A stretch of DNA of 64,000 nucleotides, from assembly GCA_938003955.1 (NCBI GenBank), contig CALKXE010000005.1:1-64000 (forward strand). Reading direction: 5' to 3'. Source of the stretch: an uncultured Saprospiraceae bacterium. GTDB lineage: Bacteria > Bacteroidota > Bacteroidia > Chitinophagales > Saprospiraceae. Below, piece after piece: positions 32,291 to 63,648 of this stretch (within the stretch, counting starts at the first letter, position 1; every line of letters starts with the position of its first letter). Both the position numbers and the translations under genes were made by a program. Below the pieces are notes generated by a model, which saw only the letters and a list, made by a program, of their open reading frames with translations, was not told where the DNA came from and did no database searches.

Positions 32291-32336
32291 ACTTTATAAT
32301 TGATCTATTCTATATTTCTTATTGGGTTCCTTGGTT

Positions 32337-34814
32337 TCATTCACTTCGTTCTCCATGAGAACTAATTCTTTTACGTCTTTTTTCCCATTTGTGTTCTTGG
32401 CGTTGCTGTAGATATGTTTTTGTCATCATATTCGTAAGTTTTTGCACTCCTTCTTCGAAATTGCTGGTTTCAGTAGAGTGTTCTTCACCGAATATCTTAG
32501 TGATGAATGTCTTTTTATCATCTTCGGACTTTATATATATTCCTTTTATAGCAAATCCTGTTACTTCCCGTCGTTTGTTTACAAACTTATTAAGTTCTTT
32601 TAAGTTTCTAATTCCCATAGATGGCTCACCGTCAGTAATTACAAACATAGAACAAGATAAGTTAATCTCTGAATTTTTGCTTTTCAGTCTGTTTACAAAG
32701 TCAATCATACGATCTTCACAACCGATGATACCATCACTAATATTTGTGCTTTCTAGTCCAGTATATGTAATGTGTGGCCCTGAAATTCTAGATATAACTG
32801 TCAAGATCTTAAATAGGAGATTCTTCCTAGTATATTCATAATCAAACTCAACACCTGGAATAAAGTTATTGCTAAAGAAATGAAAGGCGTCAAATGATTT
32901 TCTGCTCTGAAGTCCTGTGACCATGAGATAGAGCATCTTGTATAGATTCCTCATTCGATCATGATCCATGGAACCTGATAAATCTAAACAAAAACAGTTT
33001 ACTTGCGTAACTTCTCCTTTCTTTATCTTAGTCTTTAGGGTTTTCATTACGTTTCCTCTGATCCATTTTTCAGGATCAAAAACAGTTTCTGGGTCAAATT
33101 CTATTCCATCAGAAGTATGACGAAAGCTATCAAACTCTGTTGTACGTTTAGAGGGCAATGCTGTTTTGAATGCTGAAGTAACAAATGGCACAAAACTTTG
33201 TATTTCTTCTTCTATTTGTAGCATCTCTGTCAGAAATACTTCCTTTTGAGCAATTGAGAAACCTTCTTCCAGATCTATTCCCAATTCTCTCATCTTTTGT
33301 TCTCGAAAAGCGGATCGTGATCGCATGGTTTCATTTGCTTGCCTTATTGCAATATTCCACCTTCTTTGATTGGACGCATAAAAGAAAGACGGAACACTAT
33401 CTATGATGCGCTGTAGACCTTCATTAGATCTAACATTTTGTATTGATTCAATATAAGAGACGAGTAATTCTGCCTCTGCTTTTTCATGGTCTTTTTTATG
33501 TTTCAGATAGGTTGTTGCGATGTCACTTTCTGTTATTGTCGCAAGGTTTAAATTAGGTACTAATTTCTGTTCTACACGTTCCCATTTATAAAATGGGAGA
33601 CTTATAGTGTTGCATAACTCTAGTTGGTATTCTTCTATTTGTTGATTAACGGAATAAACGTATTCGTCATTTTGGGGATTCATGGAAGATTGTCCAATAT
33701 CGATTAATAAGTTAATTTCATTATTAGTCAATCTAGATTTGCGTAATAGTAAATCTCCATAGTCTAACTGTTTATTACCAAAAAGGCTTAGATCATTAAA
33801 ATTAGCTTTGTAAGTCAGCATTGATTTGACTGTGTTGACAATATTTTTCCGACTGAACGTTTTTCCAATTTGACTAATGATTGATTCTTCGTCTAGCGCT
33901 TTATGGACTAAATGAATATTCTCGTTTCTTCCATCCACCGTTATTTCTCGGTGCATTATGATATATCTATCAAGCATTAGTAGACGATAATCTATTGATA
34001 GTAAATTGTGTAAATCGTCATTGAAATCTGGGAAAGACGAGAAGAAAAAATATTTTGAATTTGACTTTTTGACTTCTAATAATTCTTCTATAAACACTTT
34101 CTTGTATTTGGAAATCAGAACCAAGACATCTTTGTCATAATCGTATCCATCTTCTACTATTAAAGGGTTATTGCTAATAACTACTTTGTCTACCAATTCG
34201 TAGAACCATGAAAAAAACACTTGTGTATTTAGTTGTTTGTCATTGGCAATTGGAGAATAGTGAGAGATCCATCCTTCAAGATTTGTAATACTTGCTGTCA
34301 TAGAATCCGAGAAAAGAACAATATTTATGTACTTCTCAGCAGTGTACAATAGTGTTACGGTTGATAGAGGCAGTTTTTTTTGTGAATCAGAGTTGATGTT
34401 TTCTGCAACTGTATCCAATAAATCTATGTACTTGAAATCTGCAGTTATTTGCGCAAGAACATTCATAGAATCGCTTAATTCTTTATGTTTTGTGTTTGCA
34501 ATGTCAGATACTGGCACAAGTAAGCCTAATTCATCAGTCAGTTTTTTAATTTCGTTTCTTTCTCCTTTATTAGGTTTGTTTTTCTTAGTTAAATATTTGC
34601 TTGTATGCTTATTTAATTGCCTAGACCAGTCTATATTTCCTTTCTTGATCGTAGGGTTATAAAGTTGTATCGTCTTGATATCACTTTCTATTATTTGTAC
34701 TGTTTTTGATAATGCGTTAGCCTGGGTTAAATTCCAATTACGAATATTTTCAAAACTTACTTCACGTGGATTAAGCAATGGAATGAAATTGGATAAAATT
34801 GGTGTTGTGGCCAT
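32337..34814 (-). CDS. VWA-domain protein of a MoxR/VWA-type module
   Basis: An 825-residue cytoplasmic protein. The first ~580 residues are helical and unfamiliar. From about residue 600 there is a von Willebrand A domain: FCLDLSGSMDHDRM (MIDAS DxSxS with Asp611, Ser613, Ser615), a Thr/Ser-rich FTYTGLESTNISDG-like loop near 680, and CSMFVITDGEPSMGI with the later MIDAS Asp. VWA proteins paired with MoxR-type AAA ATPases act as metal-dependent adaptors that deliver substrates for remodelling. The ATPase is the divergent neighbour 141 bases away. First gene of a two-gene unit. Confidence 0.85.
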   Translation of the reverse strand: MATTPILSNFIPLLNPREVSFENIRNWNLTQANALSKTVQIIESDIKTIQLYNPTIKKGNIDWSRQLNKHTSKYLTKKNKPNKGERNEIKKLTDELGLLVPVSDIANTKHKELSDSMNVLAQITADFKYIDLLDTVAENINSDSQKKLPLSTVTLLYTAEKYINIVLFSDSMTASITNLEGWISHYSPIANDKQLNTQVFFSWFYELVDKVVISNNPLIVEDGYDYDKDVLVLISKYKKVFIEELLEVKKSNSKYFFFSSFPDFNDDLHNLLSIDYRLLMLDRYIIMHREITVDGRNENIHLVHKALDEESIISQIGKTFSRKNIVNTVKSMLTYKANFNDLSLFGNKQLDYGDLLLRKSRLTNNEINLLIDIGQSSMNPQNDEYVYSVNQQIEEYQLELCNTISLPFYKWERVEQKLVPNLNLATITESDIATTYLKHKKDHEKAEAELLVSYIESIQNVRSNEGLQRIIDSVPSFFYASNQRRWNIAIRQANETMRSRSAFREQKMRELGIDLEEGFSIAQKEVFLTEMLQIEEEIQSFVPFVTSAFKTALPSKRTTEFDSFRHTSDGIEFDPETVFDPEKWIRGNVMKTLKTKIKKGEVTQVNCFCLDLSGSMDHDRMRNLYKMLYLMVTGLQSRKSFDAFHFFSNNFIPGVEFDYEYTRKNLLFKILTVISRISGPHITYTGLESTNISDGIIGCEDRMIDFVNRLKSKNSEINLSCSMFVITDGEPSMGIRNLKELNKFVNKRREVTGFAIKGIYIKSEDDKKTFITKIFGEEHSTETSNFEEGVQKLTNMMTKTYLQQRQEHKWEKRRKRISSHGERSE

Positions 34815-34955
34815 ATCGTAATTTGACTTATAATCTTGTATTCAATGATGATTTGAATAGATAAAGAAATAAAGTTCTTAGTTTTTATGCTGTCAAAATA
34901 ATACTTAGTTTGGAGATTCGATTATTTTTGGAGTAATTCATTTTAACTAATTCAT

Positions 34956-37900
34956 ATGCCAAAACAAGATAACCAATTTCAATTTCAAGCATTACCTGAT
35001 CATTTTCAAAGAGATTCACATGAGCAAATTGTTGGTCTTCAGATAGATAGACTCCATATGTTGAGTGGGGCTTTGTCTAGCCAGGATATATTAATCGTTC
35101 AATATAGGGATAGTCCGCTATTAAGTTTCTATGATGTGAATGGTGCGTTAATTGATGTAGACCATTATTTGCCAGATAACTATTCTCTTAACGATGATAG
35201 TACAAGTCAGTCAGTGGTCTATAATACAAAAGGTTACAAAAAAACGGAAGCTAAGAATAAGGCAAAATATAAGACTATACTTAACCGAATCTATAAAGCG
35301 GGCAACGCTGATTTTTCTGCAGGTTTACAAGTGTTGCATGATTTAATAATTCCCAAAGATTTGCTTGTCAAACTAGCTGGAGTAATTGAATCTGAATATC
35401 AATCAAAGAAGCTAATCGAGGGGCTACATATCAACTTTTTCTGTTTCCATGATTTTCTAGAAGCGCTTGTTTCTGAATATCAAAAGGGTAGTGGAGGCTA
35501 TGTCCATATTACGGAGAATGACAATATTATCATCACAACATTGAACAAACGTTCGGGGATTTCCGTAATCATAGAAACCAAGGATATTAAAGGTGATTTA
35601 TTGCCTGCTAATAAGTGGAATATTGTAAGAACGGGCTCAAAATCAAAATTGGACCAAGCACTTGTATTTAGAACAGAAGATGTAAAGGGATTTTTTAAGT
35701 CTATTAACTTCGAATCTACATTTGATACAGATCGCTATCGACTATATTTCAAGCCAGGAATGTTGTCTATGGATAGTCTGCTGGACAATACTGATAATTT
35801 ATTGAATCTATATATTTATAATAACTGCTATCAAATATTAGCATCTGATCACAACATCATTATCGCTCTAACGAATAATCAAGAAATCACAGTAGTCAAT
35901 ACACACAAATCTGTTATTCCCCAAAAGTGGCCAAGAAAGATAGTTCTTCCCTATGATGCTAAATGGATGAGAGTGGATGAAAATCTAAGCTGCCTATTTA
36001 TCCAAGATGATGAAGGTAGTATAGAAGCTTTTGATATTACAGGCGATCATACAATATCTCTTGGTAATCTTGGGATATATGATGAAGGATTCGAAGTGAA
36101 CCAGAGAGGAGATCTTATCGTGGCACTGAATAATGGTAAATCCCTAGCTAAGATTAAAACGAATGTATATGATTTGAATTTAGGTGCAGATCTAGATAGT
36201 TTCACTGAGATTTTTAAAGATATTTCACATTTATTCAAAGGAGAGTCTATATTCACTAAAACGGAATACGCCGAGGCAATAACGGAATTAGTCGAAGAGG
36301 AAAATAATGCATTGCCTACAGCGATAGAGATGGCAAGATATGATTTCGAAACGAATATAGAGCACAGACTTCTAGAGTCTGGTGACGGGTATTTATCCTT
36401 GTTAGATGTGCAAAATAAAATTGCAATAGCTAGAATAAATATAGCCGAAGAATTGACTGCAAAATCAGATCAGTTAGGGGCTATTCTTGTAGGACAACGT
36501 CTTAATTCCGCAATTTCTAATATTGTAGGCCCAATAGAGAAAAGAGTCAATAGTATGGTTGATATAGCTAGATCTAATAATATATTAGATCTAGTACAAG
36601 CTTACAGGGAGGATATCACTCAACAAAGTGACACGGAGGCTTATCGTGAGATGCTCAATAATCTTAGAGGATTCGATCAAGAATTATCTGCCATGGCACA
36701 CAATTTGGAGGATGGTGTTCTTTCTGAATTCAAAACTATTCAAGAGGAATTAAATTCGCTTTTTGCAAGTCAAATCACGAATGACGAAAATGAACTCAAC
36801 AAGTTTATCTCTGGTGAAATTGATCTAATAGAACAAGCAATAATCGATACGCATGAGCCTCGAAGACTAGAGTTGTTACTAAGTACACATCCAGCTTGTT
36901 TGGAGTTGATGTCACTTCTAAAACAGCCATTTATACTACAAAGTGTGGCTAAGGGAAAAAGATATAGCCCTGCAATGATACAGACAAGGCTACTAGATAA
37001 GGTTGAAAAAAGACACGAAGCACTACAGTTAATCGAGCAAAAGAAAGAAGAAAAGCAAAACGCAGCCAAGCTTCAGTTTTCCAATATGATTTCTGATAGT
37101 ATTCTCTTTTTCGTAAAGAACCATACAGGAGGATTTTCTGATCATGAGCTAAACGCGAATGCTAACCATGAGTCTATCTTACAAGATATAAGGAAGCTAG
37201 AACGTGATTATAATGATGTAAGGTTGGCACAAGACCTGAGAAGGAAACTCAATCGACGCATACTAGATCGGAACAGAGATGATCTAGAAAAAATGGTGGC
37301 CTTTGAGGGCAAGTACGCTTTTGTTCAGAACGATCCTGATTTATATGTAGATCTTGAAAATAATCAAATATCGGTACCTAATTGGGATATCCAGATTACA
37401 GAAAAGAAAAGTGATGAGGATAAATACATTGTAAGCTATGTTAGGAGTTCAGATAAGGAAGTACACAAAATAAGCACGGAGGAAAATCTATTGTCAGGTA
37501 AGGCATTTGAATTGACAGAAGCTGAGTATAGAGCATTCTCATTGAAATATCAATATTATATTACTAGTGAGTTTTCTTATAATTTGCTAGAGGCAATATG
37601 GGCAGTCTATTGTGAAGAAGCAGAGGCGGGAAGTTATCCTCAATTCGCTATTGCAGATATAGAACGAGACATTCCAAAGTCAAGTGTAGAAGCTAAATCA
37701 TTAAGATGTGCTTTAGAGAAAAAACATAAAGAGTATCTAGAGAAAAACAGAGATAGATATGTTCCACAGATTAGTTCTGATTTTATTGATGAGACTCCGT
37801 ATTTTCAAGGGAAACTGCATGAATTCGTATTAAAAGCGAAACTTCAAAAATTAAGCGGGTCGGGAATAATTTTATTAGCTGGGCCTCCGAGTACGGGTAA

Positions 37901-38897
37901 GAGTGTGTTCTTGAAATTTGCTGCTTCAATTATGAATCGAGAATATTTCGAGCATACATCTGATAAGTGGCAAACTAAAAATAGCTTAGTTACGGCTATC
38001 AAATTTGGAGAGTACGGGCCCTATTCTATACCTGCTGGGTTCACTAAGGCAATAACCACTTCTCATGCTCTGATCAACATAGAAGAAATAAAAGAGTGGC
38101 CAGAAGCATTACGGAAATCATTGAATCCATTTTTTGCAGGTAGCAAGGTTTTTACGTCTCCTGATGGAACTAAATACGATATTGGCGATGATATACTCTT
38201 ATGTGCTGCGGCGAATCTAGGATCGATGTACAGACAGGAAGACGAACCGTTTACTGCAGATTTTTGGTCTCGTATAGAAGTCGTCGAATATGACTACGCA
38301 CCAGAATCGGTTACCGCCGATTATTATGATGAATTGATGTCACTAACAAAAAATAAACTGGTAACAACTCAGGACCTGGCGAGGGATTATTTCAACTACT
38401 ATGATGCACCTCAAGACGCCAATGGGAAAGCATTATATTTTGCCAAACAGTTTTTAGAATTCATTCTGCTCCCAAAAGCGGATGAGGAAATAAAAAGGGA
38501 TAATCTATCAAAATACATAATCGATTATTTTACCAACAACCTTAATCTCGGCAAAGTAAGGAAGACAGATCTATACAGTCCTGAAGAAGCCATCAAAATT
38601 GCTTTTAAAAGGGTCAAAGATTTCAGGAGCTTCGATGTGAAAGAATTCTATGATCTATATAATCACTTTGCCAATGGAAGATCACTGCGAAGTAAACGGT
38701 TGGAAAAAATGAAAATGTCTGATGTGACAAAGTATGAACAGCTGAAAGTTCAGATCCTAATAATAAGATATATGGAAGGCTGTCTTAGGGAACTAAGGAA
38801 GTTGTTCTACAGTTCTGCTGGACAGACGGAAATTGAGGGGACGAATAGAGAATTTATCAAATGCGTGCATTTGATGGAGCTGATAGGGCAGATGTAA
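34956..38897 (+). CDS. Giant MoxR-like AAA+ ATPase with beta-rich N-terminus and coiled coils
   Basis: A 1313-residue protein. Residues ~1-410 are beta-rich and look propeller-like (NIIIALTNNQEITVVNTHKS, LSCLFIQDDEGSIEAFDIT, DLIVALNNGKSLAKIKTN). Residues ~440-800 are helical and coiled-coil rich. Residues ~960-1150 are an AAA+ domain: Walker A GPPSTGKS (976-983), a Walker B variant ALINIEEIKEWP with Glu-Glu at 1043-1044 in place of Asp-Glu, and sensor 1 AAANLGS (Asn1087). A helical tail follows. Databases label some relatives DNA repair ATPase, for which nothing here gives direct support. Likely partners are the divergent VWA and beta-rich proteins. Confidence 0.8.
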   Translation: MPKQDNQFQFQALPDHFQRDSHEQIVGLQIDRLHMLSGALSSQDILIVQYRDSPLLSFYDVNGALIDVDHYLPDNYSLNDDSTSQSVVYNTKGYKKTEAKNKAKYKTILNRIYKAGNADFSAGLQVLHDLIIPKDLLVKLAGVIESEYQSKKLIEGLHINFFCFHDFLEALVSEYQKGSGGYVHITENDNIIITTLNKRSGISVIIETKDIKGDLLPANKWNIVRTGSKSKLDQALVFRTEDVKGFFKSINFESTFDTDRYRLYFKPGMLSMDSLLDNTDNLLNLYIYNNCYQILASDHNIIIALTNNQEITVVNTHKSVIPQKWPRKIVLPYDAKWMRVDENLSCLFIQDDEGSIEAFDITGDHTISLGNLGIYDEGFEVNQRGDLIVALNNGKSLAKIKTNVYDLNLGADLDSFTEIFKDISHLFKGESIFTKTEYAEAITELVEEENNALPTAIEMARYDFETNIEHRLLESGDGYLSLLDVQNKIAIARINIAEELTAKSDQLGAILVGQRLNSAISNIVGPIEKRVNSMVDIARSNNILDLVQAYREDITQQSDTEAYREMLNNLRGFDQELSAMAHNLEDGVLSEFKTIQEELNSLFASQITNDENELNKFISGEIDLIEQAIIDTHEPRRLELLLSTHPACLELMSLLKQPFILQSVAKGKRYSPAMIQTRLLDKVEKRHEALQLIEQKKEEKQNAAKLQFSNMISDSILFFVKNHTGGFSDHELNANANHESILQDIRKLERDYNDVRLAQDLRRKLNRRILDRNRDDLEKMVAFEGKYAFVQNDPDLYVDLENNQISVPNWDIQITEKKSDEDKYIVSYVRSSDKEVHKISTEENLLSGKAFELTEAEYRAFSLKYQYYITSEFSYNLLEAIWAVYCEEAEAGSYPQFAIADIERDIPKSSVEAKSLRCALEKKHKEYLEKNRDRYVPQISSDFIDETPYFQGKLHEFVLKAKLQKLSGSGIILLAGPPSTGKSVFLKFAASIMNREYFEHTSDKWQTKNSLVTAIKFGEYGPYSIPAGFTKAITTSHALINIEEIKEWPEALRKSLNPFFAGSKVFTSPDGTKYDIGDDILLCAAANLGSMYRQEDEPFTADFWSRIEVVEYDYAPESVTADYYDELMSLTKNKLVTTQDLARDYFNYYDAPQDANGKALYFAKQFLEFILLPKADEEIKRDNLSKYIIDYFTNNLNLGKVRKTDLYSPEEAIKIAFKRVKDFRSFDVKEFYDLYNHFANGRSLRSKRLEKMKMSDVTKYEQLKVQILIIRYMEGCLRELRKLFYSSAGQTEIEGTNREFIKCVHLMELIGQM

Positions 38898-54207: not shown

Positions 54208-54765
54208 ATGAAACAAAATAATATCAAACTATTGGCAGTGTTATTCGCAATGTTTTTTGCAAGTATTTCTCATAATGTAAATGCTCAAAAAATAGAAAAG
54301 ACAAATGAAGGATACGTGATGGGAAATACGATCTATCTAAAGAACAATATGGTAGACCTGTTTAAAGATTCACCTGATGCCCTTCTATTATATGAAAAAG
54401 CAAAAAGGCAAAATTCGGTTGGAGATGTCACCTTAGGATTTGGTGTCGCTTTAACGATTCCAGGAGTATTATTGATTAGTAAAGGAAGAAGCACTGCAAA
54501 TCAAAAATCTAAAAGTCCATTAGAAACAGTAGCTAATGGTATCGGTGGTGGGATTTTTAGTGCTGGAGGTTTATTTTTTGTTACTGCCGGAGTTGGCCTT
54601 GGAGCTATATCATTAATAAGCTATTCAGCATCAAAATCAAATTATAAAAAAGCGATACGTGAGTACAATTGGAATAAGGTAGAAAGTGTAGGATACAAAA
54701 AAGACGAAGTTTTTATAGAAACAAGTGTGACTGGAAATGGATTTAGTTTGACTTATAATTTTTAA
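54208..54765 (+). CDS. Exported small membrane protein, unknown, leads the isoprenoid cluster
   Basis: A 185-residue protein: signal peptide MKQNNIKLLAVLFAMFFASI ending near VNAQ, a short soluble part, then two hydrophobic, glycine-rich helices (about residues 71-90 LGFGVALTIPGVLLIS and 113-140 GIGGGIFSAGGLFFVTAG) and a tail with alternating charged residues. No family recognised. It ends 14 bases before the HMG-CoA reductase gene, so it may share that transcript; it may equally be an independent envelope protein. Confidence 0.65.
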   Translation: MKQNNIKLLAVLFAMFFASISHNVNAQKIEKTNEGYVMGNTIYLKNNMVDLFKDSPDALLLYEKAKRQNSVGDVTLGFGVALTIPGVLLISKGRSTANQKSKSPLETVANGIGGGIFSAGGLFFVTAGVGLGAISLISYSASKSNYKKAIREYNWNKVESVGYKKDEVFIETSVTGNGFSLTYNF

Positions 54766-54779
54766 TCAAAATATCACTT

Positions 54780-55853
54780 ATGACACAATACATAAAAAAA
54801 GACGTGTTACGCAATAATGAGCATAGAGGTAATATCGAAAACTTCATCGGATTTACTAATATACCTACCGGAATAATTGAAGAACTAAATATTCAGAATA
54901 GAACAGCCTCATTCAAAACTATAATTCCTTTAGCAACTACAGAAGGAGCATTGGTAGCTAGTTATAATCGTGGTTGCAAAGTTATGAACCTGGCCGGAGG
55001 TGTTACATCAATTGTAGTAGATCATGGAGTTCAGAGGGTTCCGACTTTTGTATTTGATAATTTGAATGAATCATTACAGTTTGCTGATTGGGTTGATAAT
55101 GTAAAATTAGGATTTCAAAAAATAGTAGATACAAAAACGAACTATGGAAAGCTGAAATCGTGTACATGTATTACAGAAGGAAATATAGTGAATGTAGAAT
55201 TTGTATACACTACAGGAGATGCATCTGGTCAAAATATGGTTACGTTCTGTACAGATGAAATCTGTAATTTCATCTTAGAAGAAGCACCAGTTTCTCCTAA
55301 GAGATGGTACATTGAGGGTAACCAAGGAGGTGACAAAAAAGCAAGTAATCAATTCTTAAAAACTGTACGAGGAAGAAAGGTGATATCAGATATTAAAATA
55401 TCTAAAGAAATTGTAATAAAGCATCTTAAAACTACTCCTGAAGCAATCGTCAATTATTGGCAGGTCTCTATGGTGAATCAAGTAATGTCGGGAGCATGTG
55501 GCTCACATGGTCATCTATCAAATGGATTAACGGCTATTTTTCTAGCTACTGGACAAGATGTAGCCTGTGCAGCCGAATCATCCGTTGGTGTATCAAGATT
55601 TAATCTTACTGATGATGGTGACCTGTATGCTTGTCTTACACTACCATCACTTATGGTAGGCACAGTTGGCGGCGGTACTGGTATGGCTTATGCGCAAAAC
55701 AATTTGAAACAAATGAATTGTCTTGGTCTTGGGAAGGCAGATCAATTTGCAGAGATCATTGGAGGACTTCTACTCGCGGGTGAACTATCAATTGCAGCAG
55801 CAATGGCAGCCAATCATTTTACATCAGCGCATCAGAGATTGGGGCGCAAATAA
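54780..55853 (+). CDS. Hydroxymethylglutaryl-CoA reductase, class I-like
   Basis: A 357-residue HMG-CoA reductase, catalytic core only. Motifs: ENFIGFTNIPTGI (substrate entry), LATTEGALVASYNRG with catalytic Glu55, TTGDASGQNM, GGDKKASNQ (catalytic Lys186/187), TGQDVACAAESS with Asp260, and the C-terminal NHFTSAHQRLG with His351. The TTEGALVAS and DKKAS forms are class I (biosynthetic, NADPH type) and not class II. It reduces HMG-CoA to mevalonate in the mevalonate pathway. No other mevalonate gene is present in the window. It heads a run of prenyl-lipid genes. Confidence 0.93.
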   Translation: MTQYIKKDVLRNNEHRGNIENFIGFTNIPTGIIEELNIQNRTASFKTIIPLATTEGALVASYNRGCKVMNLAGGVTSIVVDHGVQRVPTFVFDNLNESLQFADWVDNVKLGFQKIVDTKTNYGKLKSCTCITEGNIVNVEFVYTTGDASGQNMVTFCTDEICNFILEEAPVSPKRWYIEGNQGGDKKASNQFLKTVRGRKVISDIKISKEIVIKHLKTTPEAIVNYWQVSMVNQVMSGACGSHGHLSNGLTAIFLATGQDVACAAESSVGVSRFNLTDDGDLYACLTLPSLMVGTVGGGTGMAYAQNNLKQMNCLGLGKADQFAEIIGGLLLAGELSIAAAMAANHFTSAHQRLGRK

Positions 55854-55917
55854 TCGATTTCAAGTAGTGATGAATTCTATATTTTAATTTTCATTTTAAA
55901 TCAAAAAATGTGGTACT

Positions 55918-56856
55918 ATGAATAATTCTATAAATAATAATAGTAGCTATTTCGCTCGTTTGTGGCAGTATCAAAGTGAACGCTTCCCAATTTTCGCTCA
56001 TGGGCTTCTTATAACAGCATTTACATTTTCTGCAATTTCGTTTTCAATATTAAGTAGAGGAGCTGAAGGTTTTATACGTTTAGACTACTTTTTAGTAGGC
56101 CTGATGACTACATTTTCATTGTTTTTTATGATGAGAGTATTGGATGAGATCAAAGACAAAGATGTAGATGCTAAGTATAGAAATCATCTGCCCGTACCAC
56201 GTGGACTAGTCTCGATAAATGAGTTGTTACTAGTCGGTATTGGTTTAGCGACACTTACACTAGGAATGATATTTATATTCTATCCTAAAATGATCTTTCT
56301 CATGATTGTTGTAGTGACTTGGTTAGGTCTAATGACGGTAGAGTTTTTTGTTCCTCAATTTCTTAATAGTAGACTTTTGTTATATGCGACTTCTCATATG
56401 ATGATCATTCCGTTGATTGATATTTATGCTAGTGGTTTGGATTGGTTTCTAGATGGAGGAAGACCACATTTTGGTTTGGTCATATTCTTTGCACTATCAT
56501 TCTTTAATGGCTTGGTGATTGAGATAGGAAGAAAAATAAAGACTCCAGCCGATGAATCAGAAGGAGTGCAAACATACACTTCAGTATTGGGTACTAATTC
56601 TGGATTATTTCTCTGGTTGACTGTTTCGACGATTACCTACTTAATAGCAATGTATGCAATATCTTATGTCGGTATTTCTACTGCTTCAATGGTTGTGTTA
56701 TCAATTTTTTACTGTGTGTTAATTGTTGTCGGGATCAGATTCTATCGGAATAAGAATAGTCAGAATTCAAAATTAATAGAACATGCTTCAGGTATATGGA
56801 CACTCAGTATGTATCTCATTATAGGAGGACTACCTGGTCTTATTAGTTTGTTTTAG
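55918..56856 (+). CDS. UbiA-family prenyltransferase
   Basis: A 312-residue intramembrane prenyltransferase with about 8-9 helices. The first Asp motif is RVLDEIKDKDVDAKYRN (Asp76, Asp80, Asp82, Asp84) and the second EIGRKIKTPADESEGVQTY (about 202-220), the paired Mg-pyrophosphate sites of the family. The EIGRKI-P-DE-EGV form is seen in uncharacterised UbiA homologues rather than in UbiA, MenA or cyoE proper. It joins a prenyl diphosphate to an acceptor in the membrane; the acceptor is unknown. It lies 64 bases after HMG-CoA reductase and 36 bases before the PEP-synthase-like gene. Confidence 0.88.
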   Translation: MNNSINNNSSYFARLWQYQSERFPIFAHGLLITAFTFSAISFSILSRGAEGFIRLDYFLVGLMTTFSLFFMMRVLDEIKDKDVDAKYRNHLPVPRGLVSINELLLVGIGLATLTLGMIFIFYPKMIFLMIVVVTWLGLMTVEFFVPQFLNSRLLLYATSHMMIIPLIDIYASGLDWFLDGGRPHFGLVIFFALSFFNGLVIEIGRKIKTPADESEGVQTYTSVLGTNSGLFLWLTVSTITYLIAMYAISYVGISTASMVVLSIFYCVLIVVGIRFYRNKNSQNSKLIEHASGIWTLSMYLIIGGLPGLISLF

Positions 56857-56892
56857 AAGTCAATTTTTTTGTCAAAGAAATAAATATCAATT

Positions 56893-59379
56893 ATGACAAC
56901 TTTAAAAAATATAGAAACAATAGGTGGGAAAGCGCAAAACCTTATAAAGCTTGTTGAACTTGGATATAGAGTGCCATCATTTTTAGTATTGTCGAATGCC
57001 GATCTAGTAAATAATGAAAAGAATGCTCTCTTAGATCTGATAAAAAAACAAATACCGAATGTTTCAGGCAAAAGATTCGCAGTTCGATCCTCAGCTGATC
57101 TTGAAGATGGAGATAAGCATTCTTTCGCTGGGTTGTTCTCTACTCAACTCAATGTCCCATATGATCAACTATTGGACGCAGTTACTTCTGTTTTAGAATC
57201 ATCAAGTAGTGATCAAGTAGCGGCATATATAAATGCAAAAGAGATAGACAAAGCTGTTAAGATGTCAGTTATTATACAAGAAATGGTGGAGGCAGATGTT
57301 TCAGGTGTAGCCTTTAGTATGCTTACAACAGAAAAAGAAACAGGAGTCGTTATTAATTCTGTGTATGGATTAGGAGAAGCCTTAGTGTCTGGCGCAGTCT
57401 TAGCGGATCAATATATGTATGATGATTCAGGGATTAAAGCTGATATCACGAATAAGGTGAAAGCCTTAAGACCGGCAGAAAAAGGTAATCTGACATGGTG
57501 TACTATTGATGAGCAATTGTCAATGGAGTCATCATTATCGTATGATCAGGTGAAAGAGATAGCGGAGGTGCTTCTTCAATTATCTGCGGATTATGATTGT
57601 CATGTAGATATTGAGTTTTGTATCAAAAATGAGCTGCTATATCTGCTTCAAGTACGTCCAGTAACAGCTAATGTAGTAGGTCAGAAGAAGGATAATCGTA
57701 TAGTCTGGGATAATAGTAACATCATAGAATCTTATCCTGGCATAACATCACCGCTTACGTTTTCTTTTATCCGTCATATGTATGAGGTTGTGTATACTCA
57801 GTTTGCAGGAATGCTGGGTACTAATGACAAAACACTCGCTCAAAGTAAACCTATCTATGCCAATATGCTCGGTCATTTGAATGGCAGAGTTTATTATAAT
57901 CTCAAAAGTTGGTATTCGGCATTAGCAATGGTACCTGGATACAAACTTAATGCTCCATTCATGGAAAAAATGATGGGTGTAAAAGAGTCTTTTGAATTAG
58001 AAAACGAAAGGAAAATATCAAAGAGCAGCGCTTGGTGGCAATCTCTAATTTCTGTTTTTAAGTTAATATGGTCATTTGTTAGACTTAAGTCTACTTCAAA
58101 TAAATTCATGAAATTCTCTGACAATATTATACAAGAATATAAGACCAAGACTTATAAAGAAATGTCGACTATTCAGATGATTAAGGAATATAAATCATTT
58201 GAAGAGGTCCTATCTCATAAATGGAAGGCGCCGTTGATCAATGATTTTTTTGCAATGATACTTTTCGGGGCTTTAAGTAAATGGACCGAAAAGTTGACAC
58301 CCAATAATCCACAAACGATTAATGACTTATTAATTGGAAGCCAAGATATAGTATCAATTCAACCATTAAAAAAATCATTGCATATTACCAAACTCATCAA
58401 AGAGACTCCTAGCTATAGAATGCTATTTGAACTAGATTCGGTAGAGATAGTAGAAAGACTTAATGATGAGATATACACTGACTTAAACCTGTTAATAATT
58501 AACTATTTGGATGAATTTGGCGATCGATGTCCAGAAGAACTAAAGCTAGAAACTAGAACATATAACCAAGAACCCGCTGCATACATCGATATTCTTAAGT
58601 CATATCTTGAAATCGACCTTGAGCGATTTGAAGGAAAAGGATCTGATCAAAGGACTGCGACTGAAGCACTTTGTCTGAGTAAGCTTAAAGGTTCATTCTT
58701 CAAAAGAATGTTGTTTGGATGGGTCTTAGGAAAGACAAGGTATTTAGTGAGTAATAGAGAAAACCTTCGATTCCAAAGAACCAAAGGCTATGGAGTAGTT
58801 CGAACCATTTTTAACGAGATAGGGATAAGATTTTTTAATAAGAACTTGATAGAGGAACAGGCGGATCTATTCTACTTAACCAAAGAAGAAATTTTTGATT
58901 TTGTGAATGGGACGAGTATAGATACTAATCTGAAACACATCATATCTTCTAGGAAGACAGACTATGAACGATACGCTAGTTTACAGATGAAGGATAGAAT
59001 AACTACCTACGGAATCGTAAATGAAAATGACATAATCGATCATTCTTCAAAATTCAGCAGTAGCAATTTGAAAGGTGTCGGATGCTGTGCAGGAGTTGTA
59101 GAATCAAAGGTAACAGTAATCACCGACCCTAATTGCATCGATAGTTTAGATAATACGATTCTTGTCACTCGATTTACAGATCCAGGATGGGTAAGATTAT
59201 TTCCTTCTGCGGCGGCCATTATTGTTGAGAAGGGTAGTCTACTTAGTCATTCCGCTATAGTGGCCCGAGAACTTGGGATTCCTTGTATCGTGGCGGTCGA
59301 TGGCTTGATGGAATCTTTGACGACAGGTGATACTGTGATTATGGACGGAAGTACCGGCCTTATTTCAAAGATAGATTAG
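56893..59379 (+). CDS. PEP-synthase/rifampin-phosphotransferase-like phosphotransferase
   Basis: An 828-residue protein with the modular PEP-utilising layout: an N-terminal ATP-grasp domain (GGKAQNLIKLVELGYRVPSF, AVRSSADLEDGDKHSFAGLF, QEMVEADVSGVAFS, GLGEALVSG), a central unassigned region (WDNSNIIESYPGITSPLTFS, seen in uncharacterised relatives) and a C-terminal phosphohistidine swivel (EKGSLLSHSAIVARELGIP, His786). Such enzymes move the beta-phosphate of ATP through His to a small acceptor. It lacks the barrel PEP-binding domain of true PEP synthase, so the acceptor is another molecule. In this operon the acceptor could be a prenol or prenyl phosphate (inference). Confidence 0.85.
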   Translation: MTTLKNIETIGGKAQNLIKLVELGYRVPSFLVLSNADLVNNEKNALLDLIKKQIPNVSGKRFAVRSSADLEDGDKHSFAGLFSTQLNVPYDQLLDAVTSVLESSSSDQVAAYINAKEIDKAVKMSVIIQEMVEADVSGVAFSMLTTEKETGVVINSVYGLGEALVSGAVLADQYMYDDSGIKADITNKVKALRPAEKGNLTWCTIDEQLSMESSLSYDQVKEIAEVLLQLSADYDCHVDIEFCIKNELLYLLQVRPVTANVVGQKKDNRIVWDNSNIIESYPGITSPLTFSFIRHMYEVVYTQFAGMLGTNDKTLAQSKPIYANMLGHLNGRVYYNLKSWYSALAMVPGYKLNAPFMEKMMGVKESFELENERKISKSSAWWQSLISVFKLIWSFVRLKSTSNKFMKFSDNIIQEYKTKTYKEMSTIQMIKEYKSFEEVLSHKWKAPLINDFFAMILFGALSKWTEKLTPNNPQTINDLLIGSQDIVSIQPLKKSLHITKLIKETPSYRMLFELDSVEIVERLNDEIYTDLNLLIINYLDEFGDRCPEELKLETRTYNQEPAAYIDILKSYLEIDLERFEGKGSDQRTATEALCLSKLKGSFFKRMLFGWVLGKTRYLVSNRENLRFQRTKGYGVVRTIFNEIGIRFFNKNLIEEQADLFYLTKEEIFDFVNGTSIDTNLKHIISSRKTDYERYASLQMKDRITTYGIVNENDIIDHSSKFSSSNLKGVGCCAGVVESKVTVITDPNCIDSLDNTILVTRFTDPGWVRLFPSAAAIIVEKGSLLSHSAIVARELGIPCIVAVDGLMESLTTGDTVIMDGSTGLISKID

Positions 59380-59421
59380 CTCCATTATACTTAGGGATTT
59401 ATAAACTCATTTCTAAAATAC

Positions 59422-60492
59422 TTGAATATGAAAAATGTAAAGTTTGATTTGATTAGATATGCTAATGTTTGGGAAGATCCAGATATGTTGATCAATAATT
59501 ATACAGCAATAGAGGACAAAAGAATACTTTCTATTGCCTCGGCTGGGGATAACTGTTTAGCATTACTGTCCCACAATCCTGAATGCGTAGTTGCTGTAGA
59601 TGTTAGTGATGTACAACTATATCTTACAGAACTCAAAGCATGTGCAATTAAAATTCTTAGCTATTCAGAATGTGAATCATTTTTGGGTTTTGTGCCAAGT
59701 GGAAATAGATCAACCTACTACTCATATCTGCGAGAAGAGTTGACAGAAGAATCGCGTCTCTATTGGGATGATAATCTTGGCGTAATTGAGTCTGGTATTA
59801 TACATTCTGGTAAGTTTGAGAAGTACCTTAGGAAGTTCTCTCAGAAGGTATTACCGATGATTCATTCGGAAAAAGTAATCAGCGAATTGTTTCAAGAAAA
59901 GTCTCTTGGGGACCAACAACAATTTTACTCAGAGAAATGGAATACATGGAGGTGGAGAATTCTTTTTAAGGTATTTTTTAGCAAATTTGTAATGGGTAGA
60001 TTGGGTAGGGACCCAGAGTTTCTAAAACAAGTAGAGGTTCATGTTAGCTCGTTCATTCTTAATCAAGCAAAGGAAGCAATTACTTCTGAGCAGGCATTTG
60101 ACAATCATATTCTGAGATATTGTTTGACGGGATCCTTTCAGGAACTGCGACCATACTATATGCAGAAAGACAATTTTGAAGACATCAAAAGGAATATATC
60201 TAAACTAGAATTCAGATCTGGATTAATTGGAAGTTTGGATCCTTCTATTGAGAAATTTGATCTGTTTAATCTGAGTAATATATTTGAATACATGGATTCA
60301 ACTACTTTCCAAAAAGTAGCCAGTCAAATTCAAAATTTAGCAAAGCCTAAGGCACAATTCGGATATTGGAACCTAATGGTTAATCGCTCTTTAATAGATC
60401 CAATTTCTGAGATAAAGAATAAATGTAAAAACGGAATGGACAAAGGGTTCTTTTATAATGAATTCCATATTAACGAACTCGGATTGGTTTAA
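59422..60492 (+). CDS. BtaA-like 3-amino-3-carboxypropyltransferase (DUF3419)
   Basis: A 356-residue protein of the DUF3419 family: DLIRYANVWEDPDMLINN, SIASAGDNCLALLSHNP, AVDVSDVQLYLTELKACAI and ILSYSECESFLG at the N-terminus form the SAM-binding part, with a C-terminal NLSNIFEYMDSTTFQ segment. BtaA in bacteria transfers the 3-amino-3-carboxypropyl group of SAM to diacylglycerol, making diacylglyceryl-homoserine, the betaine-lipid precursor. The Rossmann motifs fit; the acceptor here may be a prenyl-lipid or diacylglycerol. No BtaB methyltransferase lies in the cluster, so the product would remain unmethylated unless one is elsewhere. Confidence 0.85.
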   Translation: MNMKNVKFDLIRYANVWEDPDMLINNYTAIEDKRILSIASAGDNCLALLSHNPECVVAVDVSDVQLYLTELKACAIKILSYSECESFLGFVPSGNRSTYYSYLREELTEESRLYWDDNLGVIESGIIHSGKFEKYLRKFSQKVLPMIHSEKVISELFQEKSLGDQQQFYSEKWNTWRWRILFKVFFSKFVMGRLGRDPEFLKQVEVHVSSFILNQAKEAITSEQAFDNHILRYCLTGSFQELRPYYMQKDNFEDIKRNISKLEFRSGLIGSLDPSIEKFDLFNLSNIFEYMDSTTFQKVASQIQNLAKPKAQFGYWNLMVNRSLIDPISEIKNKCKNGMDKGFFYNEFHINELGLV

Positions 60493-60529
60493 AAGACAAT
60501 GTTATGTTAGAACAAAAAAAGAACAAATT

Positions 60530-61174
60530 ATGATAGAATTACAAAGGATATTATGTGTTTCTGGAGTGTTTTCAGTATTGTTTTTATTTAGTGAACGCCT
60601 ATATTCAGGACTAAAGCTCAATAGTGAATCATCCAGGAAGTTTGTGCATGTATGTACTGGGATTATAAGTTTGATGTTTCCATATATTTTTGATGATTTT
60701 TGGGAAGTAGCTGTTTTGTGCTCATGTTTTATGGTCATATTGACATTGATCGAATCAAGATCACTTCTTCCATCCATCACAGGAATAGATAGGAAGTCTA
60801 GTGGTAGTATCTATTTTCCACTTTCGGTAATTATTGTCTTTGCATTTTATAAATTGACAGGAAATCTTGACCACTATATCTATCCTATACTTCTTCTTAG
60901 TATATGTGATCCGATTGCTGCCATTATCGGTAAGAAATATGGTTTGCGTGAATTCAGTATTGGGGGGAATACAAAGACATATCTAGGCTCTTTTGCGTTC
61001 CTCATTTCCGCTTTGCTAGTAATCATTTTATCAGACTATTCACTTGGGTCTGACTTGTCGATACTGTTTATGTTAATATTAGCTATTGTGACTACTGCAG
61101 CTGAGGCGTTTAGTCGTAATGGTGCTGATAATTTATTCATTCCGCTATCTGCCATTATCGTTTTGTCATTCTAA
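60530..61174 (+). CDS. Polyprenol/diacylglycerol (dolichol/phytol) kinase-like membrane protein
   Basis: A 214-residue protein with about 7 membrane helices, belonging by pattern to the CTP-dependent SEC59/DGK1/VTE5 family. Motifs: SSRKFVHVCTGI (the RKxxHxxxG motif), SICDPIAAIIGKKYG, TKTYLGS and AEAFSRNGADNLFIPL. It likely phosphorylates a long-chain or prenyl alcohol. I start at ATG 60530 (MIELQRILCVSGV); an in-frame ATG at 60458 overlaps the previous gene and adds a polar stretch. Placed 11 bases before the GNAT gene. Confidence 0.85.
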   Translation: MIELQRILCVSGVFSVLFLFSERLYSGLKLNSESSRKFVHVCTGIISLMFPYIFDDFWEVAVLCSCFMVILTLIESRSLLPSITGIDRKSSGSIYFPLSVIIVFAFYKLTGNLDHYIYPILLLSICDPIAAIIGKKYGLREFSIGGNTKTYLGSFAFLISALLVIILSDYSLGSDLSILFMLILAIVTTAAEAFSRNGADNLFIPLSAIIVLSF

Positions 61175-61185
61175 ATAATAGTAAA

Positions 61186-62169
61186 ATGCAATCTTATATT
61201 ATTCATCCTGAATCTAATCAATTCACAGTTTTTAGAGAGATGCCTGGCTTCTGTGTAGAGCATCATGAAATAGATAAAGATGTTAATAAGCAATATCTAC
61301 TCTGTGGAATAATCGTTAAATCAAACGGCTTAATTCTCGGGAGGGTCGCAGTCTATAAAAACCCATTTCATAAAGTGGAAGATACACCTGTCATAAGTCT
61401 AGGTTATTATGAAAGCATCAATGATCAGACTGTGGCAGACTTGCTTTTTGAACGAGCAAGTGATCTTGCAAAATTATATAATTGCACTTCTATCATTGGT
61501 CCAATAAATGGCTCTACATGGAAGAATTATAGATATCAAACGGGAGGAGTATCGGATCCATTTTTTTTAGAGTATAAATCACCAGAGTATTATTTAGCAT
61601 TGTGGAGAAACTCAGACTTTACGGCTCTTGCTCATTATTTGAGCGAGCGTATAGATCTCGATCAATCTGTCAGAAAGATCAACACGGACGCGTATTATCT
61701 CAGAACAGGAATTAGGGTGCGAGGAGTCAATATCGATTCGTTTGAGAGTGACCTGACACAGATAGGAGTCTTAAGTCTAGATTCATTTAGGCAAAACTTT
61801 TTGTATTCGCCAATTGGGATTTTAGATTTTAAGGAAATGTATTTAAGAATAACTGATTGGATAGATCCGAATCTAGTTCTTGTAGCAGAGGATGAAGGCG
61901 AGGTTGTCGGATATATATTTGCCGTAAGAAACTATAATGATACTTCTCAAAAAGGGGTGATTATAAAAACGTTGGCTAGATCAAATAATACTAAATATCG
62001 AGGGCTTGGATCTGTATTAAGTGCCCAATTAATAGATTATGCAAGGTCAGTAGATTATGACTATGTAATCAATGCTTATTTCCATTCCGATAATTTGTCC
62101 AATAACACCTCGAAGAAGTTCAATGCAAAGCCATATAAAGAATATGAATTATTAACCAAAACGGTCTAA
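61186..62169 (+). CDS. GNAT-family acyltransferase
   Basis: A 327-residue protein. The C-terminal ~90 residues form a GNAT domain (LVLVAEDEGEVVGYIFAVRN, TLARSNNTKYRGLGSVLSAQ with the acyl-CoA-binding RxxGLG loop, and YFHSDNLSNNTSKKFNA). The N-terminal half is another alpha/beta region with a GNAT-like pattern (GPINGSTWKNYRYQ), so a tandem or degenerate double GNAT is possible. Such enzymes acylate amines using acyl-CoA or acyl carriers. In this cluster the acceptor could be the amino group of a homoserine-type headgroup (inference). The ligase ATG follows the stop codon directly. Confidence 0.8.
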   Translation: MQSYIIHPESNQFTVFREMPGFCVEHHEIDKDVNKQYLLCGIIVKSNGLILGRVAVYKNPFHKVEDTPVISLGYYESINDQTVADLLFERASDLAKLYNCTSIIGPINGSTWKNYRYQTGGVSDPFFLEYKSPEYYLALWRNSDFTALAHYLSERIDLDQSVRKINTDAYYLRTGIRVRGVNIDSFESDLTQIGVLSLDSFRQNFLYSPIGILDFKEMYLRITDWIDPNLVLVAEDEGEVVGYIFAVRNYNDTSQKGVIIKTLARSNNTKYRGLGSVLSAQLIDYARSVDYDYVINAYFHSDNLSNNTSKKFNAKPYKEYELLTKTV

Positions 62170-63648
62170 ATGCTTATTATGGAAAACAATATTGTAAACA
62201 TATTTGAAGAACAAGTACGATGTATGCCGTCTAAGCTTGCTTTGATTGAACAGGGAAGATCAGTAACTTTTGGTGAATTAGGTGATAAAGTAAATCAATG
62301 TGCAGCCAGATATAATCGTAAGGGAATATATAAAGGTGCTCATGTATTGGTGTTAATTCCTGTCTCTATCGATCTATATATTAATGTACTGGCCCTATTT
62401 AAGTTGGGCGCAGTTGTTGTATTCACAGATGAATGGGTCAATAGTAAGAGGCTCTCTGTTTGTATAGATAAAGTTGGAGTTGACTACCTAGTTACCTCAA
62501 TGAAAGGCTTTTTGTTTAGTTATGTCCACAGTGGATTGAGACAGATTAAGAATAGGGTTATTTATAAATCTACATCTGAGCAGTTTGTTGAACATGCGGC
62601 AATAGATAGAAGAGACAGTGCTCTTGTAACATTTACGACTGGAAGTACTGGTACTCCTAAAGCGGCTAATAGAACACATGAATTTCTATTGGCACAATTT
62701 ACAGAATTATCAACTACATTATCAGAGTTAAAAGATAATCCATGCATGACTACCTTACCTATCGTTGCCTTATGTTGTATAGGTATGGGAATTACCACTT
62801 TGTTGCCGAGTTATAATCACAAGGAGCCAAGTAAGACAGACTTGAAATTACTTTCTGATCAGATTATTTCTCATGGGGTGAAATCTATAATCGGGTCACC
62901 ATATCTCATGCATCAGCTGTGTGATTTTTCTCATGATTTGAGATTGTCTCATATATATGTAGGTGGTGCAGCCGTCTTCGCAAGTGATGCTGAAAAGTGG
63001 ATAAAGCATTTTGCTAAAACGAAGATCGAAATCATCTACGGTAGCACAGAGGCTGAGCCTATTTCTCAAATTAGTGCATTTGATTTAGTAAAGCAAAGTA
63101 CATCTAATAGCGGGGTTTGTGTGGGCGAGCCAAACGAACATATCAAATTGAAGATTATAGAAATAAGTGATATGCCTATAGGTCACATTTCCGATACTAA
63201 GATGCTTGAGGAAGGTGTTTCCGGTGAGGTGATAGTAGCGGGGGATCATGTGCTCCAAGACTATATAAATAGCCCCGAGGCGCTAAAGTCAAATAAGATA
63301 TCAGGTAGAAACGAATTATGGCATAGAACAGGAGATGCGGGCTATGTGAAAGATGGGGTTCTCTATCTAGTGGGAAGAGCATCTCAAATGATACTTATCA
63401 ATGATAGACAAGTTGGAGTGTTTCAGATTGAAGAAAGACTATCTAATATTGAGGGAGTAACCAAAGGGACGATACTTAAAGTAAATGACGAAATTCAAAT
63501 AATTGTAGATGGTCTATTGACTGAGAAATCTATAAATGAGATACATGAATCAATTGGGAGCTTTAAAGTAAGATCTGATATCAAGATCCCGATGGACCCA
63601 AGGCATCACAGCAAGATTGATTATGCAAGGTTGCAGGATTTGATTTGA
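62170..63648 (+). CDS. AMP-forming acyl ligase, OleC-like
   Basis: A 492-residue adenylate-forming enzyme: VTFTTGSTGTPKAANRTHEF (A3 P-loop), IEIIYGSTEAEP (A5), NELWHRTGDAGYVKDG (A7), LVGRASQMI (A8). The C-terminal MDPRHHSKIDYARLQDLI, with the A10-type Lys, resembles the OleC/peptide-synthase-like branch of the superfamily rather than typical acyl-CoA ligases. It activates a carboxylic acid as an adenylate and passes it to CoA or another acceptor. The GNAT stop codon and this ATG abut; Met4 at 62179 is an alternative start. Confidence 0.88.
   Translation: MLIMENNIVNIFEEQVRCMPSKLALIEQGRSVTFGELGDKVNQCAARYNRKGIYKGAHVLVLIPVSIDLYINVLALFKLGAVVVFTDEWVNSKRLSVCIDKVGVDYLVTSMKGFLFSYVHSGLRQIKNRVIYKSTSEQFVEHAAIDRRDSALVTFTTGSTGTPKAANRTHEFLLAQFTELSTTLSELKDNPCMTTLPIVALCCIGMGITTLLPSYNHKEPSKTDLKLLSDQIISHGVKSIIGSPYLMHQLCDFSHDLRLSHIYVGGAAVFASDAEKWIKHFAKTKIEIIYGSTEAEPISQISAFDLVKQSTSNSGVCVGEPNEHIKLKIIEISDMPIGHISDTKMLEEGVSGEVIVAGDHVLQDYINSPEALKSNKISGRNELWHRTGDAGYVKDGVLYLVGRASQMILINDRQVGVFQIEERLSNIEGVTKGTILKVNDEIQIIVDGLLTEKSINEIHESIGSFKVRSDIKIPMDPRHHSKIDYARLQDLI

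Follow-up and report, generated by a model that had tools for sequence, protein, structure and literature searches.

Rifampin phosphotransferase and the PigC/RedH ligases phosphorylate or join small hydrophobic molecules, and OleC is an olefin beta-lactone synthetase. BtaA, of the BtaA/BtaB betaine-lipid system, is an established 3-amino-3-carboxypropyl transferase (PMC10491745). Archaeal lipid genes, with a UbiA-type digeranylgeranylglyceryl phosphate (DGGGP) synthase, have been proposed for bacteria of the FCB group (PMC7852524), and orphan HMG-CoA reductases (HmgR) have been mentioned as unexplained in bacteria that use the methylerythritol phosphate (MEP) pathway (PMC13001223). Here we examine a block of seven genes that encodes relatives of all of these proteins. 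It lies at positions 54780-63648 of a 64,000-nucleotide stretch of DNA (the window) from an uncultured Saprospiraceae bacterium, and the Bacteroidota genome assembly from which it comes has 304 contigs and a size of 5.2 Mb.

No known system in our comparison matches the block in full. With BtaA/BtaB, the block shares the DUF3419 domain, but its DUF3419 gene sits among genes for UbiA, a phosphoenolpyruvate (PEP)-synthase-like (rifampin-phosphotransferase-like) dikinase (PPSL), a dolichol/phytol-kinase-like protein (DolK), a GNAT, and an AMP ligase, and the protein belongs to a separate clade without the HQDW motif. No methyltransferase gene that could correspond to BtaB lies between or beside the window’s seven genes, and none is recurrent in the other loci. 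The PPSL has the ATP-grasp, middle, and swivelling phosphohistidine domains of rifampin phosphotransferase and PigC/RedH and no PEP barrel, but it is far under the curated cut-offs for these proteins (222 of 999 bits for RPH and 274 of 1300 bits for PigC), and its gene context differs. The ligase is of the AMP-forming type and has the RHxxKI A10 motif, as OleC does, but it reaches 169 of the 900 bits required, and no OleA, OleB, or OleD was identified in the window’s block. The likeness to DGGGP synthase and the FCB-group genes consists of a UbiA-type membrane prenyltransferase and, at some loci, of CdsA and a CDP-alcohol phosphatidyltransferase; the block differs in that it is not linked to GGGPS, has other acidic motifs in its UbiA, and has other partner enzymes. 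Finally, the orphan HmgR of MEP-pathway bacteria is likewise an HMG-CoA reductase (HMGR) unaccompanied by the other mevalonate-pathway enzymes. What sets the HMGR of the block apart is its fixed place in a conserved operon, and this offers it a role.

The enzymes come from known superfamilies, and what is new is the pathway. An earlier, sequence-only reading of this DNA had named no described system with this gene set, and our search of the open-access literature, which did not extend to MIBiG or other pathway databases, likewise found no paper that describes it.

Seven genes recur together in at least six bacterial phyla

The seven genes are consecutive on the + strand, in the order HMGR, UbiA, PPSL, DUF3419, DolK, tandem GNAT, and OleC-like AMP ligase, with intergenic gaps of 64, 36, 48, 37, 11, and 0 bases. 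The sequence-only reading had described seven to eight + strand genes spaced 0-64 bases apart. The seven that it named are all there. The eighth, the open reading frame (ORF) at 54208-54765, has no family match and no counterpart at other loci, and we do not count it as a member of the block. Downstream, the block ends at an FKBP-type gene on the opposite strand. A scan for promoters and terminators found sites no more frequently than in shuffled sequence.

When 199 genomes of the same order were searched with the DUF3419 protein, six further copies came up (42-48% identity). As far as their contigs extend, these six loci have the identical gene set in the identical order, with different flanks, and most of them carry an extra small START/SRPBCC gene near the GNAT. 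We also scanned a species-representative collection with a UbiA profile and kept the best-scoring loci (at least 80); the counts that follow describe these loci and are not a census. For 55 UbiA loci there was at least 9.5 kb of sequence downstream, and PPSL was found in 54 of them, DUF3419 in 53, the ligase in 51, the GNAT in 50, DolK in 49, and SRPBCC in 10. HMGR was present, leading the operon, in 55 of the 62 loci with sufficient sequence upstream. The near-identical gene set and order occurs at about 70 loci or more, and this recurrence is far beyond chance.

The block was found in Bacteroidota, Verrucomicrobiota, Planctomycetota, Nitrospirota, and Deinococcota, on an alphaproteobacterial plasmid, and probably in Chloroflexota (the contig of the Anaerolineae locus stops after three genes). 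Its owners include Saprospiraceae, Sphingobacterium, Dyadobacter, Parapedobacter, Rhabdobacter, Microscilla, Fluviicola, Crocinitomicaceae, and Opitutaceae, as well as a planctomycete, a Trueperaceae bacterium, a Nitrospirae bacterium, an Anaerolineae bacterium, and gut bacteria. The plasmid, from Roseinatronobacter, carries UbiA, PPSL, DUF3419, two “hypothetical proteins” at the positions of DolK and GNAT, and the ligase; Roseinatronobacter is also among the plasmid HMGR matches listed. In some Verrucomicrobiota, the genes occur in a rearranged order (HMGR, DUF3419, DolK, GNAT, ligase, UbiA, and PPSL at locus L181, with L150 and L151 partly alike), and related gene sets are also found in Planctomycetota. 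In random draws of genomes, the UbiA clade was found in 8 of 395 Bacteroidota (10 of 395 with looser relatives) and, with looser relatives included, in 14 of 195 Verrucomicrobiota and 14 of 294 Planctomycetota; these low rates indicate a patchy distribution. Pairwise distances of the block proteins correlate (Spearman 0.42-0.84), as is expected under co-inheritance, and shared descent alone contributes to this too. The Nitrospirae genome (G208) has two copies of the block (L103 and L128), and our searches detected neither DXR nor diphosphomevalonate decarboxylase there.

Because the genes are found together in several phyla, with more than one arrangement, and also on a plasmid, we conclude that they are a real operon and one functional unit, present in at least six bacterial phyla. 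The joint pathway that the sequence-only reading had proposed therefore stands, and in the gene-neighbourhood check that it had suggested, which could have revealed independent genes, the genes stay together in related genomes. The operon probably builds an undescribed lipid. Our tentative overall reading is that the window contains one copy of an operon that is conserved, has spread horizontally, and makes an undescribed amphiphilic lipid, with a chemistry that we infer from the evidence below.

The HMG-CoA reductase of the operon

The first gene (54780..55853, + strand) encodes a class I HMGR homologue of 357 amino acids (PF00368, 327 bits). The protein is about 60-70 residues shorter at its N-terminus than its orthologues and has a long branch in the tree, with all four catalytic residues intact. 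The cluster HMGRs in general are of class I and keep the catalytic Glu, Lys, Asp, and His when their motifs are aligned with those of housekeeping HMGRs, and they form a clade apart from archaeal and plant HMGR. The position of human Ser684, which belongs to the substrate pocket of the human enzyme (PMC3875450), is occupied by Glu in all 73 of the cluster HMGRs that we read.

The HMGR could supply mevalonate and thereby raise the amount of prenyl diphosphate available to UbiA for building an isoprenoid-anchored lipid, which is close to what the sequence-only reading had proposed. Prenyl diphosphates are the usual substrates of UbiA, the HMGR has the leading position noted above (55 of 62), and in hosts with the mevalonate pathway, such as the window’s own genome (which has diphosphomevalonate decarboxylase), extra mevalonate could feed isopentenyl diphosphate. 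However, diphosphomevalonate decarboxylase is absent from nine owners that combine the MEP pathway (DXR present) with a cluster-type HMGR. Matches to it in these genomes score 20-24 bits at most, a level that E. coli gives as well, which suggests that the matches are to IspE. Furthermore, the six Bacteroidota owners with the mevalonate pathway, including the window’s genome, have a second HMGR besides the cluster copy (class II-like where aligned), and three related loci without HMGR have an acyl/thioester reductase instead. Mevalonate supply is therefore unlikely, and the cluster HMGR seems to do something other than provide isoprenoids. Two other markers of the mevalonate pathway were uninformative: mevalonate-pathway Bacteroidota also lack matches to PF01154 (HMG-CoA synthase), and GHMP kinases match TIGR00549 (mevalonate kinase) nearly everywhere, below the cut-off in all but one genome.

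The reductase that takes the place of HMGR is a PF07993 “male sterility”/thioester-reductase-type protein. At two Bacteroidota loci (L154 and L155), it is accompanied by a phosphatidylserine (PS) decarboxylase, without HMGR and without the ligase; DolK is retained at L155 but missing from L154, which has a lipid kinase of the YegS type. At a planctomycete locus (L174), a PF07993 reductase lies near DUF3419, with no HMGR within the 20 kb that were read. Because of this replacement and the change from Ser684 to Glu, the cluster HMGR may reduce a thioester other than HMG-CoA, yielding an alcohol.

Alternatively, mevalonate itself, or an anhydro derivative, might be the building block, made by HMGR, activated by the AMP ligase, and attached by the GNAT or another enzyme. 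There is a precedent in the mevalonyl siderophores of fungi. The HMGR is an orphan in MEP-pathway hosts, its catalytic residues are complete, and the OleC ligase family uses beta-hydroxy acids, of which mevalonate is one. But the Glu in the substrate pocket (73 of 73), the gut clusters that have the ligase without HMGR, and the thioester-reductase loci that lack HMGR all speak against a mevalonyl product, and we regard it as improbable.

Vibrio and Photobacterium replicons encode class I HMGRs that fall inside the cluster clade, with Asp in place of Ser684 (L132:6812-8074 and L133:6800-8137); in the annotated Vibrio fluvialis record, the gene is solitary. Microscilla has a second class I HMGR outside its cluster (L126:7512-9065), which groups with one on a plasmid of Alteromonas macleodii. 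The loss of Ser684 is not peculiar to the clusters, since Asp or Ala occupies this position in solitary HMGRs of Vibrio and Alteromonas.

UbiA, PPSL, and DUF3419

The second gene (55918..56856, + strand) encodes the UbiA-superfamily membrane prenyltransferase (PF01040, 48.9 bits, cut-off 34.2). Its acidic motifs are altered, to DExxDxxxD and ExGRK, in 81 of 81 orthologues. When the UbiA profile was compared with the PDB, there was a single, weak match, to DGGGP synthase (6m31, E = 0.012). This match and the CdsA and CDP-alcohol phosphatidyltransferase genes near some clusters are what one would expect if the operon made archaeal-type ether lipids, with GGGPS, UbiA as DGGGP synthase, and CarS, as has been proposed for the FCB group. 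But GGGPS (PF01884) is present in every Saprospirales genome tested, with or without the cluster, and no GGGPS was found above the cut-off in the owners from Verrucomicrobiota, Planctomycetota, Deinococcota, Nitrospirota, and Chloroflexota or in the gut owners. A link between GGGPS and the cluster was rejected, since the occurrence of PF01884 is independent of the cluster, and archaeal-type lipids are a very unlikely product. Two relatives of the clade’s UbiA in Verrucomicrobiota (L180:9077-10030 and L184:5025-5978) stand without any further gene of the cluster in the sequence examined around them, and one of them adjoins a HisA-like ORF.

The third gene (56893..59379, + strand) encodes the PPSL dikinase, with an ATP-grasp part (PF01326, N-terminal part, 167 bits), a middle domain, and a swivelling phosphohistidine domain (PF00391 mobile domain, 85 bits). 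There is no barrel domain, in agreement with the sequence-only reading, which had seen a phosphohistidine phosphotransferase without the PEP barrel. The best matches in the PDB (5hv2, 5fbs, and 5hv1) are entries that are named PEP synthase there and are known as rifampin phosphotransferases, and the protein also resembles the PigC/RedH ligases. The active His is present in 72 of 75 orthologues, and the remaining three are cut by contig ends.

The fourth gene (59428..60492, + strand) encodes a DUF3419 (BtaA-superfamily) homologue of S-adenosylmethionine (SAM)-dependent 3-amino-3-carboxypropyl transferases (PF11899, 194 bits, cut-off 28). We judged the listed TTG start at 59422 to be less likely than 59428. 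The predicted structure (pLDDT, a model-confidence score, of 94) has a SAM-methyltransferase-type fold, and a comparison of the model with solved structures gave no close fold. Relative to canonical BtaA, the cluster proteins form their own clade, in which the WED motif is kept. The HQDW motif is present in none of 70 cluster proteins, as compared with 7 of 7 canonical-type proteins from the same order, and canonical-type BtaA occurs as a separate gene in genomes of the same family. The membership of DUF3419 in the BtaA family might be explained if the operon were a BtaA/BtaB-type betaine-lipid (diacylglyceryl-trimethylhomoserine) system to which other genes have been added. Given the lost signature, the separate canonical gene, and the block’s lack of a BtaB-like methyltransferase, this is highly improbable, and the diacylglyceryl homoserine-type lipid of the sequence-only reading, if taken as BtaA-type in the narrow sense, is not supported either. 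At L029:1148-4058, a divergent DUF3419 gene stands beside a GNAT-like ORF and genes for a ferritin protein resembling aldehyde oxygenase and for a long-chain acyl-ACP reductase, which is another set of DUF3419, thioester reductase, and GNAT. At L030:1-1945, where a contig ends, part of a DUF3419 gene adjoins a serine-palmitoyltransferase/BioF-like gene and is possibly a sphingoid-type relative.

DolK, GNAT, the ligase, and partner genes

The fifth gene (about 60530..61174, + strand, in an ORF that opens at 60458) encodes a putative DolK-like homologue of CTP-dependent lipid kinases (SEC59/CdsA superfamily). The window’s protein has no Pfam match. The assignment is based on an alignment of orthologues, which have the motifs RKxxH, GS, and DPxAAxxGKxYG; orthologues from gut bacteria match PF01148 weakly. 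The sixth gene (61186..62169, + strand) encodes a tandem-GNAT acyltransferase (PF00583, 34 bits). For its model (pLDDT 92.5), the best solved folds are the tandem GNATs MAB_4324 and MshD, which are generic matches and give no hint of the substrate. The last gene (62170..63648, + strand) encodes the OleC-like acyl-AMP-forming ligase (PF00501, 132 bits; OleC-related PRK09274, 286 bits; OleC, 169 bits, below the curated cut-off), in which motifs A3, A5, and A10 (RHxxKI) are conserved.

Outside Bacteroidota, DolK-like proteins are 373-485 amino acids long and have an extra C-terminal membrane domain without a family assignment (L104, L109, L111, L105, L115, L110, L103, L128, and L131). A 21-bit hint that these are fusions of a phytol kinase with a phytyl-phosphate kinase (DUF92) was not borne out by a profile comparison with two DUF92 sequences.

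Additional genes accompany the operon at some loci. A CDP-alcohol phosphatidyltransferase (PF01066) and a CdsA-type cytidylyltransferase (PF01148) are found in nine clusters and at one satellite locus; in one Sphingobacteriaceae genome, the pair makes up a second locus together with another HMGR. PS decarboxylase was found at two loci, a YegS kinase at one, and an MMPL transporter at four, none of which shows HMGR in the stretch read. These partners strengthen the view, already taken from the sequence alone, that the product is a lipid. They also bear on a prenol-activation pathway, in which DolK and PPSL would turn a prenol into its diphosphate and UbiA would prenylate a small soluble acceptor, giving a meroterpenoid such as a pigment, quinone, or signal. 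Phytol kinases are among the relatives of DolK, and those of PPSL are small-molecule phosphotransferases and ligases (for rifampin and prodigiosin). However, the partner enzymes point to a phospholipid-like product, and the extra domain of the long DolK does not match the second kinase family, DUF92. A meroterpenoid is accordingly rather improbable.

Elsewhere in the window, positions 30224-38897 hold an apparent set of three ORFs, of 1313 amino acids (with a Walker-type ATPase motif), 825 amino acids (with a VWA-like stretch), and 688 amino acids, as judged by eye from the translations. PADLOC gave no match to anti-phage defence.

A proposed lipid pathway

The operon, its conservation, and the residue substitutions are observed; the chemistry that we propose is read from the enzyme families and these substitutions, and the order of the steps is a guess. 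The OleC-like ligase would activate a carboxylic acid, and the HMGR homologue (or, in other lineages, a fatty-acyl/thioester reductase) would reduce the pathway-specific acyl thioester to a primary alcohol. DolK (in one lineage, the YegS-type kinase) and PPSL might phosphorylate or couple this lipid alcohol. UbiA would transfer an isoprenyl group or one like it, with an ether as the probable linkage, after which an aminocarboxypropyl group from SAM would be added. The tandem GNAT could acylate the new amine, or in some lineages the PS-decarboxylase homologue could remove the carboxylate instead. As a sixth step in some lineages, CdsA and the CDP-alcohol phosphatidyltransferase may elaborate the head group, and the MMPL transporter may move the lipid.

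In its full form, this proposal is of a new class of membrane lipid that has spread horizontally over at least six phyla, with a class I HMGR recruited as an acyl-thioester reductase and with a homoserine-type head group from SAM that is N-acylated or decarboxylated depending on the lineage. We consider it possible but doubtful in this detail, and several observations weigh against the proposed pathway. First, the solitary HMGRs of the Vibrio type, which nest within the clade of the cluster HMGRs, carry Asp at position 684, so the loss of Ser684 is no proof of a new substrate. Second, the catalytic residues and the positions of Arg590, Lys692, and Asn755 are kept in the aligned motifs, which leaves HMG-CoA a possible substrate. 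Third, the exchange of HMGR for a PF07993 reductase rests on three loci, and the absence of HMGR was seen at the level of the locus. Fourth, five clusters (from four gut bacteria and one Salinivirgaceae) keep UbiA and PPSL, and mostly the ligase too, with no HMGR in the block, and four of these five genomes have no HMGR anywhere; the pairing of ligase and HMGR is thus not universal. Finally, the substrates of UbiA, the GNAT, and the kinase are not predictable from sequence.

The operon has cultured owners (Dyadobacter, Sphingobacterium, Portibacter, and Rhabdobacter), and a pathway this conserved should leave a detectable lipid. It offers a role for the orphan HMGR of bacteria that use the MEP route, a question left open in earlier work (PMC13001223), and this matters for the range of bacteria that statins might affect. 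A confirmed product would be a new class of lipid and would give functions to clades of DUF3419, UbiA, and PEP-synthase-like proteins that the databases label by family only.

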